32,799 nt of DNA from Frankiaceae bacterium (GTDB lineage Bacteria > Actinomycetota > Actinomycetes > Frankiales > Frankiaceae). This document shows, piece after piece, positions 21,077 to 27,539 of the stretch (position 1 is its first letter; the number at the start of each line of letters is the position of its first letter). A program made the translations under genes and the position numbers. The notes under the pieces were generated by a model. That model saw nothing but the letters and a program-made list of their open reading frames with translations. It was not told the DNA's origin and ran no database searches. Location of the stretch: positions 1 to 32,799 of the forward strand of contig JADGOW010000006.1 of assembly GCA_017882765.1 (NCBI GenBank), in the 5' to 3' direction.

Positions 21077-23743
21077 CTATGCGGCTGCTGATCGCGTCGG
21101 CTCGGACGCGCCGACATCGAGGGAACGCACGAGCAGGAACGGCGTGGACTCGCCGCCCTGGCCCAGTGGATTGTCGGCGAGCAAGTCCGCGAGCAGCCGT
21201 TCGTCCACGCCCGGGCTGGCACCCAGGATGTTGGCACCGATGTCGTTGACGTCGATGACCGCCACCTCGACCGGGCCGCCCGCGTCGGCGCTGAGCGCGC
21301 GCGACAGGGCGGCCGCGACCCCGGCCGGATCCTCGGGGGCGCGCTTGGCGTGGGTGTTGTACGGGGGGATCGTGTGCGGCGTCGGGCCGTCGATCGCCGA
21401 CACCTGCGGGCCGACGATCCGGTAGAACACGCCGTGGACGCCGAAGGGCCTGGTCACCGCCGCCGCGACGGCCGCCCGGACAATGCGTGCCGGGCCCACC
21501 TCATCAAGGGCCAGCTGCATCGTCTCGGGCACGCCCAGCCCGATGCCGACGGGCGTTCGGCTGACGAAGCGGCTCAGGGTACGGGCGAGCCGCGTCGGGT
21601 GGATCTCGGCGAGCGGCAATGAGCGCCCCTGGCTGATCGCGACGACCTTCTCGCTGGTCGCCAGCAGGTCACCGGGGCGCAGCCCGGCACCGGACGTGGC
21701 GAGCGCCTCCCGCAGCGCCGCAGTCAGGTCGTCCCCGCTGCTGATGAGCCTGCTGCGCAGCGGCGCGCGCAACCACGGGCGGGCGGGCTCGCCCGCGACC
21801 AGGACCAGATGGCGCCCCTCGTTCGCGGCCAGAGTGCCGACAGCCGCGCGAGTCTCCGCCGGCTGCTGGGCGAGGTAGGCCTCGTCGCCGATCGCCTGGA
21901 ACGACGACTGGACGGTGTGTTTGCGGCTGCGCAGCCGGCCCTCGTCGAAGAACACGCGTAGCCAGATCTCCAGAGCGACGACCCGCCAGAAGAACAGGTG
22001 CGGCTCGATCTCTCCGGCGCAGGCGCGGCGCCACATCTCGGCGATCTTCAACCCGTCCCAGTACGGACGGCTGACGAACGCCGGGGAGCGGTAGATGCTC
22101 TGCAGGATCACCCGACGCGCCTTGAGCCAGCGTGCCTCCGGCGTCGTGAACCCGATCTTCTTCCGGCGGTTGCGGATCTTCTCCGGCAGCATGTCCCGAA
22201 GGCCCTCGCGGTTGATCCAACGGCTCCACCCGTCGCGGATGATGACGTCAGGCGGCAGCGAGAGCACCCACTCCACGAGCTCCTGGTCGAGGTAGGGCAG
22301 GCGGGCCTCGAGGCTGTGCGCCATCGAGTTGCGGTCCTCGTAGCGCAGCGCGGACGGCAGGCTGTACTGCAGGAGGTCCTGCAACAGGCGCAGCTTCAGG
22401 TTGTCGGTGCTGCGCGGGTCCTGCGGAGGGTCGAGCCGGCCCACCCACTCCGCGTTCAGCAGCGACCGGATGGGCAGCGCGTGCCGCCGGTTCTCCAGCT
22501 TGCGCCGGACCAGGGGCCCGACGGTGTCGCGCGCCCCCCACGCCTCGCGGGCGAAGACGCCGAACTTGCGCTCCTTGAGCAGTTGGCGCAGGTAGAAGAA
22601 CTGGTAAGGCACGTAGCCGGCCAGCAGCTCGTCCCCGCCCTGACCGTCGAGGAGTACCGTCACCTGCTCGCGCGCCTCCCGCTGAACGCACCACTGCGCG
22701 TACGGGCCGGTGCTCACGGTCGGTTCCTCGACGTGCCAGATGAAGTCTTCGACCTCGGTGAAGAAGCGCTCACTCGTCGGCCGAACTTCATACGACTCCG
22801 CGCCGGAGGCCGCGAGCACCACGTTGATGTACTCGCTCTCGTCGATCGGGTCACCGTCGAAGAGGGCGCTGAACGTCTTCAGCCGGTCCCCCATGCTGGC
22901 GGCGTCGGGCGCGTGCTCACGCAACAACTGGGTCATCGCCATCACGATGGAGCTCGAGTCGATGCCGCCGGACAGGCACGTCCCGACCGGCACGTCGGCG
23001 ATGAGGCGGCGCTCGATCGAGCGCAGGAACAGCTCGCGGAACTTCTCTGGGCGCCCGTCGCCGTCAGTGGTGAGGACAGGCTCCCAGTAGGCCTCGTCGT
23101 GCACGTCACCTGCACCGTGGATGCTCATCCAGTGGCCCGGCTGGAGCTGGTGGACGCCGGCGAAGAACGTCTCGCTTGTGTGGTCGTGGATGCCGGTCAC
23201 CAGGTAGTCCAGGATGCGCTGGTCGTTCGGGCGGACGTGCATCGACGGGTCCTGCAGGAGCGCCTTGATCTCTGAGGCGAACAAGAGGCGATCGCCGCTT
23301 CGCGCCCAGTACACGGGCTTGATCCCGAAGTGGTCGCGGCAGAGGACCAGCTTCGGGGCGGCGCCCCGCCGGTCGAGGATGCCGATCCCCCACATCCCGT
23401 TGAACCGGCGGAATGCGTCGGTTCCCCACTCTTCGTACGCGTGGACGATGGCCTCGGTGTCGCAGTCGGTTCGGAACGTGTGGCCGAGTGTGCGCAGCTC
23501 ACCGCGCAGGTCACGGTAGTTGTAGATCTCCCCGTTGAAGACCACCTGAACGCTGCCGTCTTCGGTGCCCATCGGCTGCGCCCCGTGGGCGATGTCAATG
23601 ATCGACAGGCGGCGGAAGGCCAGGCTGGCCTCCTCCGACTCCAGGAAGCCGTCATCATCGGGGCCGCGGTGACACTGCACCTCGGCCATCGCGGCCAGCA
23701 GCGCACGGTCCGGCGCACCCCAGAAACCGGCGATCCCGCACAT
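21077..23743 (-). CDS. Asparagine synthetase (glutamine-hydrolysing) fused to an F420-0:L-glutamate-ligase-like domain
   Basis: An 888-residue protein. Residues 1-620 form an AsnB: N-terminal Cys2 (MCGIAGFWG), HRGPDDDG and FNGEIYNY for glutamine hydrolysis; SGGIDSS (258-264) for the ATP pyrophosphatase site; and DGQGGDELLAGY. After a linker (about 620-660), residues 660-885 match a CofE/F420-0 glutamyl-ligase-like fold: GDLLATSEKVVAISQGR (698-707 in the core), VSRTPVGIGLGVPETM, TRPFGVHGVFYRI, PHTIPPYNTHAKRAPEDP and DVNDIGANILGAS (Asp831, Asp834). AsnB enzymes alone are about 600-640 residues, so this is a true in-frame fusion. AGGGG lies before ATG 23743. Its substrate is unknown; the C-terminal half could be ATP/GTP-dependent ligase or a diverged relative. 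Confidence 0.82.
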   Translation of the reverse strand: MCGIAGFWGAPDRALLAAMAEVQCHRGPDDDGFLESEEASLAFRRLSIIDIAHGAQPMGTEDGSVQVVFNGEIYNYRDLRGELRTLGHTFRTDCDTEAIVHAYEEWGTDAFRRFNGMWGIGILDRRGAAPKLVLCRDHFGIKPVYWARSGDRLLFASEIKALLQDPSMHVRPNDQRILDYLVTGIHDHTSETFFAGVHQLQPGHWMSIHGAGDVHDEAYWEPVLTTDGDGRPEKFRELFLRSIERRLIADVPVGTCLSGGIDSSSIVMAMTQLLREHAPDAASMGDRLKTFSALFDGDPIDESEYINVVLAASGAESYEVRPTSERFFTEVEDFIWHVEEPTVSTGPYAQWCVQREAREQVTVLLDGQGGDELLAGYVPYQFFYLRQLLKERKFGVFAREAWGARDTVGPLVRRKLENRRHALPIRSLLNAEWVGRLDPPQDPRSTDNLKLRLLQDLLQYSLPSALRYEDRNSMAHSLEARLPYLDQELVEWVLSLPPDVIIRDGWSRWINREGLRDMLPEKIRNRRKKIGFTTPEARWLKARRVILQSIYRSPAFVSRPYWDGLKIAEMWRRACAGEIEPHLFFWRVVALEIWLRVFFDEGRLRSRKHTVQSSFQAIGDEAYLAQQPAETRAAVGTLAANEGRHLVLVAGEPARPWLRAPLRSRLISSGDDLTAALREALATSGAGLRPGDLLATSEKVVAISQGRSLPLAEIHPTRLARTLSRFVSRTPVGIGLGVPETMQLALDEVGPARIVRAAVAAAVTRPFGVHGVFYRIVGPQVSAIDGPTPHTIPPYNTHAKRAPEDPAGVAAALSRALSADAGGPVEVAVIDVNDIGANILGASPGVDERLLADLLADNPLGQGGESTPFLLVRSLDVGASEPTRSAAA

Positions 23744-26432: not shown

Positions 26433-26495
26433 CTCGGGAAGACTCGCCCGAGTGCAACGGCCGGCGCGCAAAGCCCCGCGGCGAGGAAGCCGGCC
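26433..26495 (-). promoter_or_regulatory. leuA leader hairpins (candidate attenuator)
   Basis: On the transcribed strand, just after the leader-peptide stop, GGCCGGC (26489-26495) can pair perfectly with GCCGGCC (26459-26465), a seven-base stem. Next is CTCGGG-cgagtctt-CCCGAG (26433-26452), a six-base stem followed by a run of C rather than U. The first hairpin starts inside the leader-peptide stop codon, so ribosome stalling or release there would change its folding. This arrangement fits attenuation but the exact alternative structures were not computed. Confidence 0.5.
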
Positions 26496-26542
26496 TAAGA
26501 GAGGCCCCCGCCACGGCGGCTAAGGAGAAGCAGCGCGAACAT
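26495..26542 (-). CDS. Leucine leader peptide
   Basis: A 15-codon open frame read from ATG 26542 to TAG 26495 encodes MFALLLLSRRGGGLS, with four consecutive Leu codons (CTG CTT CTC CTT) and a fifth near the end. Two of the four are the less used CTT, which increases sensitivity to charged leucyl-tRNA. It lies 106 bases before leuA on the same strand. Leader peptides of the form ..LLLLSRRGG.. before leuA are known in actinobacteria, where leucine shortage stalls the ribosome and lets leuA be expressed. Confidence 0.85.
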   Translation of the reverse strand: MFALLLLSRRGGGLS

Positions 26543-26551
26543 GATGTCTCG

Positions 26552-26557
26552 ATGGTA
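26552..26557 (-). promoter_or_regulatory. Possible -10 of the leuA leader promoter
   Basis: TACCAT on the minus strand ends nine bases before the leader-peptide ATG, so the transcript could begin at or very near that ATG (a leaderless start). No good -35 hexamer is seen, so the call rests on position. Confidence 0.3.
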
Positions 26558-26584: not shown

Positions 26585-27229
26585 TCAGGCCGCGCTGCTC
26601 GTCCACACCACGATGTCGAGAACGCGCAACGGTGACAGTGGGGGGCCGTCGGGAGGGACGAGCCGCGAAAACCTGCGCAGCTCGTCGGCGTTGGCCCGCA
26701 GGTCCTCCTGCATGGCCCGCAGCAGCAGCTGCATGTAGTCCCGCCAACTCCGGCCCAGTTTCGGTGCCGGCGGGACGCACGATTCGTGCTGGTAGAACAC
26801 CCGCACCTTGCTGTCGAAGAGCGGGACGAGAGATGGCCGCTTGCGGTGGAGCACCTTCGCAAGCAGGGATCCCTTGACGTCACGATCCTCGACCGAGGGG
26901 TCATCCAGCGGGTCGTAGAGGGAGGCCACGAGATCCAGAGTGGTCTCGTCCGCCGAAGCCAGGTCGATGCCTGGCGACAGCGCGTCCAGCGATCGCTGCA
27001 GCAGCGGCATCAGCCGGGTGAGCGTGTGCATGCGGTCCAAGCTGACGCTGACGCCGAGCAGCGCCGGGGCCAGCAGGTCTCCGGTGCACAACGTCTGGTT
27101 GTCATTGTTGGTGACGAGACCGTCGTAGTACGGGTAGGCGTAGCGCAACCCGGGCTTGTGCGGGCTGACGTACTCGGTAACGAGGCTCTCGGCGTCGAGA
27201 ACCTCGCGCGTGCCCCGGGCGAGCTTCAT
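26585..27229 (-). CDS. Conserved hypothetical protein (DUF6308-like)
   Basis: A 214-residue soluble protein with no membrane segment. It includes YAYPYYDGLVTNNDNQTLCT near the N-terminus, DLLAPALLGVSVSLDRMHTL, and SLYDPLDDPSVEDRD with KVLHRKRPSLVPLFDSKVRV. The combination of a TNND segment, a DLLAPxLL block and a K-x-L-H-x-K-R-P-x-L-x-P-L-x-D motif recalls a DUF6308-type actinobacterial family of unknown role. The start at ATG 27229 is fixed by AGGAGG nine bases before it; a longer frame to 27406 is unsupported. It lies directly upstream of the leuA leader on the same strand. Confidence 0.65.
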   Translation of the reverse strand: MKLARGTREVLDAESLVTEYVSPHKPGLRYAYPYYDGLVTNNDNQTLCTGDLLAPALLGVSVSLDRMHTLTRLMPLLQRSLDALSPGIDLASADETTLDLVASLYDPLDDPSVEDRDVKGSLLAKVLHRKRPSLVPLFDSKVRVFYQHESCVPPAPKLGRSWRDYMQLLLRAMQEDLRANADELRRFSRLVPPDGPPLSPLRVLDIVVWTSSAA

Positions 27230-27341
27230 GGCGCAGTGCCTCCTGGCGACGACGTTGTCCAGACCCCTGGCAGCTTCCCACGGCCCACCCCGCTGTGGAC
27301 GGCAACGCGGCCCTACCGCGCGACGCGTATAACTTGGGGAC

Positions 27342-27539
27342 GTGACGACGGCGCAGGGCTGGACGCTGCTGAGCATCCTGGCGGTGTTCGCGAGCCTGGT
27401 CGTCACGCTCGTCCTCGCCCAGATCCACAGTCTGCGCAGCTACATGGACGCCCGCTTCGACGCCGTCGATGCGCGGCTCGACCACCTCGACCGCGACGTA
27501 CAGGCCGTCGTGAACCGGGTCTTCCGGCGCGACGAGTAG
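27342..27539 (+). CDS. Small membrane-anchored coiled-coil protein
   Basis: A 65-residue protein with an N-terminal membrane segment (WTLLSILAVFASLVVTLVLA) followed by an acidic, heptad-patterned helix ending HLDRDVQAVVNRVF. Short actinobacterial proteins of this form, with the xLDRDVQALxxRVF end, are common and uncharacterised. GTG 27342 lies eight bases after a TATAAC -10-like element (27328-27333), so the mRNA may be leaderless. It is divergent from the DUF6308-like gene and converges with dnaE. Confidence 0.72.
   Translation: MTTAQGWTLLSILAVFASLVVTLVLAQIHSLRSYMDARFDAVDARLDHLDRDVQAVVNRVFRRDE

Follow-up and report, generated by a model that had tools for sequence, protein, structure and literature searches.

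A leucine leader ORF and a predicted pseudoknot upstream of leuA in a Frankiaceae bacterium: a candidate translational attenuator

A short open reading frame (ORF) with four consecutive Leu codons ends 106 nt before the start of leuA in a Frankiaceae bacterium. The question raised by this locus is whether the ORF is a genuine leader gene and, if so, whether it acts on the transcription or on the translation of leuA. The window analyzed here is the whole 32,799-nt stretch of contig JADGOW010000006.1 (assembly GCA_017882765.1), and the leader, the promoter hexamer, the hairpins and leuA all lie on its minus strand (Table 1). The four-leucine mini-gene is real and very probably functional and, judged by sequence comparison, is a member of the LEU element class that has already been described across actinobacteria (Seliverstov et al., 2005; PMC1262725). 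Together, the leader and the pseudoknot make up this element, which we consider moderately likely to control leuA by translational attenuation.

Table 1. Features of the leuA leader region, with positions in the window.
Feature	Position	Strand	Basis
-10-like hexamer TACCAT, 9 nt from the leader ATG	26557-26552	minus	Sequence; TANNNT conservation
Leader peptide ORF, MFALLLLSRRGGGLS and stop	26542-26495	minus	Translation; equivalents at 106/110 leuA loci
Leu codon run CTG CTT CTC CTT	26522..26533	minus	Sequence
Putative base stem, 5' strand CUCCUUAGC, overlapping the Leu codons	26527-26519	minus	Helix search
P1 hairpin, 5' arm CCGUGGCGGGG, within the leader ORF	26516-26506	minus	97% paired over 106 loci; compensatory changes
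P1 hairpin, 3' arm CCUCGCCGCGG	26486-26476	minus	Alignment of leaders
P2 pseudoknot helix, 5' strand GGCCGGC, in the P1 loop	26495-26489	minus	Arm comparison across loci
P2 pseudoknot helix, 3' strand GCCGGCC	26465-26459	minus	Arm comparison across loci
Local six-pair hairpin CTCGGG-cgagtctt-CCCGAG	26452-26433 (arms 26452-26447 / 26438-26433)	minus	Sequence and fold
Putative base stem, 3' strand GUUGAGGAG, which includes the Shine-Dalgarno GAGGAG of leuA	26402-26394	minus	Sequence and helix search
leuA, 2-isopropylmalate synthase, 573 aa	26388-24667	minus	NCBIfam PRK03739, E 5e-269

The initial annotation had read the ORF as a four-Leu leader peptide, and both its translation and its conservation bear this out. 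Searches with the leuA protein in 40 relatives and a named genome collection gave 110 leuA loci with upstream sequence across Actinomycetes. At 106 of these, leuA is preceded by a short ORF that has three or more Leu codons in a row. The run is present in the close relatives and likewise in distant ones, contrary to the lack of conservation that the initial annotation had named as a refutation; two of the nearest relatives duplicate Frankia records (L034 is L021 and L061 is L015, with equal identities and upstream sequences). After the Leu run, the 106 leaders usually continue with a motif such as SRRGGA, RCRGGA, SCRGEG or GRRDGV. Three of the four exceptions (L009, L037 and L106) keep the structured RNA region, though their Leu runs are weaker; in the fourth, L079, whose upstream sequence spans 220 nt, no such region is present. 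Upstream of leuA in L106 (Austwickia), the region of the P1 hairpin described below is retained and other residues take the place of the Leu run, so that the in-frame translation ends in TSWWRLRCRDGA; the weakened in-frame readings of L009 and L037 are MPRPLLPEPLSCRGGA and one that ends in EGLLRCRSEA. The Gulosibacter leader MLVFGTLLLLCRDEA (L098) has one codon fewer between the Leu run and CRDEA than other leaders. A record titled 'UNVERIFIED_ORG: Bacillus sp. AZ43' (L039) contains an actinobacterial leuA preceded by a complete LEU element, and its label is probably wrong.

Among ORFs of 8-30 aa on both strands of the whole window, the leader alone contains four consecutive Leu codons. A genome search with a degenerate pattern of the Leu run and P1 gave a zero-mismatch match at the leuA copy only; matches with three mismatches were dismissed as chance (16 in all versus 11 with the reversed pattern). 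An Rfam search returned no family at gathering score, the lone weak match being a microRNA far below threshold.

The upstream gene ends at 26585, leaving a gap of 42 nt to the leader, and the promoter is therefore placed in this gap, perhaps reaching into the upstream gene. That neighbor (26585-27406, minus strand) encodes a DUF6308 protein (PF19827, E 3e-34), no copy of which lies beside leuA within the stored flanks of the other loci. Further along the window, 21077-23743 (minus strand) encodes an 888-aa protein that joins asparagine synthase domains (PF00733 and PF13537) to a C-terminal stretch that matches F420-0:gamma-glutamyl ligase (PF01996, E 1.6e-12); this fusion looks rare, since nearly all matches in 24 relatives span only about residues 1-600. 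A sigma-70 promoter scan found nothing, although the scan requires a -35 element, which is weak in actinobacterial promoters. The hexamer pattern TANNNT lies 6-10 nt upstream of the leader start at 101 of 106 loci; the count is two of 106 when a position 40 nt farther upstream is taken as control. Because of this spacing, leaderless translation of the leader is well supported; the start site in this genome is predicted from the 9-nt distance to the -10 hexamer, in agreement with the suggestion of the initial annotation that almost no 5' UTR remains. In Streptomyces lividans, leuL1 is leaderless by RNA-seq (PMC8079986).

Alignment of the leaders revealed an 11-bp hairpin (P1). Its 5' arm falls within the codons that follow the Leu run, and its loop holds the stop codon. 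In the 106-locus P1 count summarized in Table 1, in which cells of the alignment were scored for pairing, the Gulosibacter leader is misregistered. Watson-Crick pairing reaches 91%; when the 3' arms were shuffled among loci 500 times, it averaged 83% and never exceeded 85%. Furthermore, pairs 6 and 9 switch between G-C and A-U (Fisher p 1e-8 and 1e-17, values that ignore relatedness), and the changes on the 5' side alter the encoded residue (Gly/Asp and Gly/Glu), so that at these two pairs it is RNA pairing rather than the peptide that is conserved. The stop codon TAG (26497-26495) shares its final base with the first G of GGCCGGC, as the initial annotation had observed, and the perfect complementarity of GGCCGGC and GCCGGCC was confirmed. 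However, these strands do not form an independent seven-base hairpin, as had been supposed; they constitute P2, a helix from the loop of the previously unlisted P1 to downstream sequence, and hence the second helix of a predicted pseudoknot. The window copy has 11 of 11 pairs in P1 and seven of seven in P2, both of which lie downstream of the Leu codons. Scored in fixed narrow windows, the arms of P2 from the same locus give -13.4 kcal/mol, against -11.5 kcal/mol when swapped among loci (p 4e-8) and -10.2 kcal/mol when shuffled (p 6e-15); a longest-helix search in wide windows gave ambiguous registers at many loci. By these comparisons the putative pseudoknot is strongly supported, and the P2 helix is conserved, less strongly than the leader ORF, the promoter position and P1. 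The folding energy of the naked leader is not unusual (z 0.49).

A second possible interaction links the Leu codons to the Shine-Dalgarno (SD) sequence of leuA, forming a base stem that was predicted earlier for this class (PMC1262725). In the window, a nine-position helix between CUCCUUAGC and GUUGAGGAG is possible, and the minimum free-energy fold prefers a neighboring register, GCUUCUC with GAGGAGU. The Leu codons of the 106 leaders are CTT (46%), CTC (35%) and CTG (18%), whereas those of the same leuA ORFs are CTT (2.8%), CTC (20%) and CTG (72%); the share of CTT and CTC is thus 81% in the leaders versus 23% in leuA. By a contiguous-helix score between the Leu run and the SD region, the observed runs exceed both synonymous runs drawn by codon usage (p 6e-7) and random CTT/CTC runs (p 4e-8). 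When scored by duplex energy, however, they beat random CTT/CTC runs only: the Leu run and SD give -9.68 versus -9.96 for synonymous runs at normal codon usage (p 0.56), the observed run is slightly worse than synonymous runs over a wider SD region (p 0.04), and runs swapped among genomes leave the genome's own run hardly better (p 0.14 and 0.008). A first duplex test of this stem had likewise found no difference from synonymous runs, with the window's own run below most. The base stem is therefore without clear covariation, and we regard it as plausible. It is conceivable, and we suggest it only tentatively, that the Leu codons double as leucine sensor and anti-SD strand, a dual role that, if true, would explain the strong preference for CTT and CTC; this preference could instead reflect isoacceptor tRNA.

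Under translational attenuation, ample leucyl-tRNA would allow the ribosome to read as far as the stop codon, which lies in the P1 loop, leaving the Leu codons uncovered, and the uncovered codons would pair with the SD of leuA and close the gene. When leucyl-tRNA is scarce, the ribosome would stall on the Leu codons and block this pairing, so that the SD would be kept free and leuA translated. We infer this switch at the SD, and the pseudoknot and the conservation come from sequence comparison. From the end of the Leu run to the stop codon there are at least 18 nt at 104 of 106 loci; judged from the size of the ribosome footprint, this is about the distance at which a terminating ribosome uncovers the run. 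Folding with a ribosome mask, a check that the initial annotation had suggested, gave an SD unpaired probability in the window of 0.23 for the naked leader, 0.57 when the ribosome was stalled at the last Leu codon, and 0.02 when it stood at the stop. The corresponding means of the 106 loci are 0.29, 0.40 and 0.33 (stalled versus naked, p 5e-9; stalled versus stop, p 3e-5; 0.33 with a mask of the same size elsewhere), a locus-averaged change that is modest and comes from fold predictions that exclude the pseudoknot.

An alternative mechanism is premature transcription termination, in which the leader would govern a Rho-dependent or intrinsic stop between 26494 and 26389 and a stalled ribosome would favor readthrough, as in the classical trp and leu attenuators. 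A leader with a Leu run and alternative RNA structures is what such a system would have, terminators are present in ilvB leaders of the same phylum (PMC1262725; Mtb ilvB1, PMC13236596) and Rho-dependent termination is possibly compatible with the sequence. The initial annotation likewise took a second hairpin to complete a two-hairpin attenuator. The hairpin, CTCGGG with CCCGAG, does exist, but the sequence after it, CCCCCCAACAAACCC, has no T/U run, and inspection of the relatives' sequences by eye found no counterpart. In addition, a scan of the region between the leader and leuA found no intrinsic terminator, and a T5 run occurs there at only six of the 106 homologous loci, which tells against the complete attenuator as first drawn. 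S. lividans leuL1 is also without a terminator (PMC8079986), and the conserved structure is the pseudoknot with a putative SD-overlapping base stem rather than a terminator and antiterminator. Termination control is thus unlikely. The gap of at least 18 nt, the SD accessibilities under the ribosome mask, the lack of a terminator and the rarity of T5 runs fit translational attenuation, and control probably falls on the translation of leuA, at its SD, rather than on an early end of transcription.

A further proposal, made by Seliverstov et al., is that a regulatory protein, or some other factor, binds the RNA and that the leader peptide is secondary. The strong conservation of the pseudoknot would suit such a binding site. 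Moreover, that paper states that published mutations of the leuA leader in S. coelicolor, reportedly including its Leu codons, gave results inconsistent with classical attenuation (Seliverstov et al., 2005; PMC1262725); this mutagenesis, known at second hand, counts in part against control by a leader peptide. A binding site would, however, leave unexplained the Leu run at 106 of 110 loci, the start codon 6-10 nt from the -10 hexamer, the frame kept up to the stop codon and the minimum spacing that separates this codon from the Leu run, and we judge it quite improbable. That the ORF is a chance product, although Leu residues are abundant and GC-rich DNA often contains CTG repeats, is so improbable as to be negligible, and is already refuted by its conservation with matched flanks at 106 of 110 loci and by its being the sole such ORF in the window.

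The locus resembles the published LEU element in its leucine leader ORF, pseudoknot, putative Leu codon-SD base stem, position before leuA and lack of an obvious terminator, and differs in that the window ORF is two codons longer than the usual form, which closes with GGA and stop, and itself closes with GGGLS and stop; in a comparison with the written description, no further difference was found (PMC1262725). S. lividans leuL1 (MRFGLLLLSCRGEGL) is similar in its four consecutive Leu codons, C-terminal motif, 15 residues and lack of a terminator, and its leaderless start is known from RNA-seq whereas that of the window copy is predicted (PMC8079986). The leuA leaders of Corynebacterium (C. glutamicum cg4015, PMC4046766; C. 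diphtheriae MNRANLLLLRRGGSQA, PMC5784534) also have four consecutive Leu codons before leuA, and that of C. diphtheriae shares an RRGG motif; however, transcriptional attenuation is discussed for them, while the window copy is without a terminator. The run of end-product codons in a leader peptide is shared with the leu, trp and ilv transcriptional attenuators of the Escherichia coli type, in contrast to which the window copy is without an intrinsic terminator or antiterminator and probably without a 5' UTR. In Mycobacterium abscessus, a ribosome-protected uORF before leuA has been reported.

This locus adds one more genome to a widespread control element of leucine synthesis, and as a single instance it is ordinary. 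The codon bias, the distance from Leu run to stop codon and the compensatory changes that alter amino acids are nevertheless testable details that separate translational from transcriptional control. If the Leu codons do play the dual role suggested above, the LEU element would be, throughout Actinomycetes, a leaderless translational attenuator that senses leucine, and a mechanism that has been open since 2005 would be settled.
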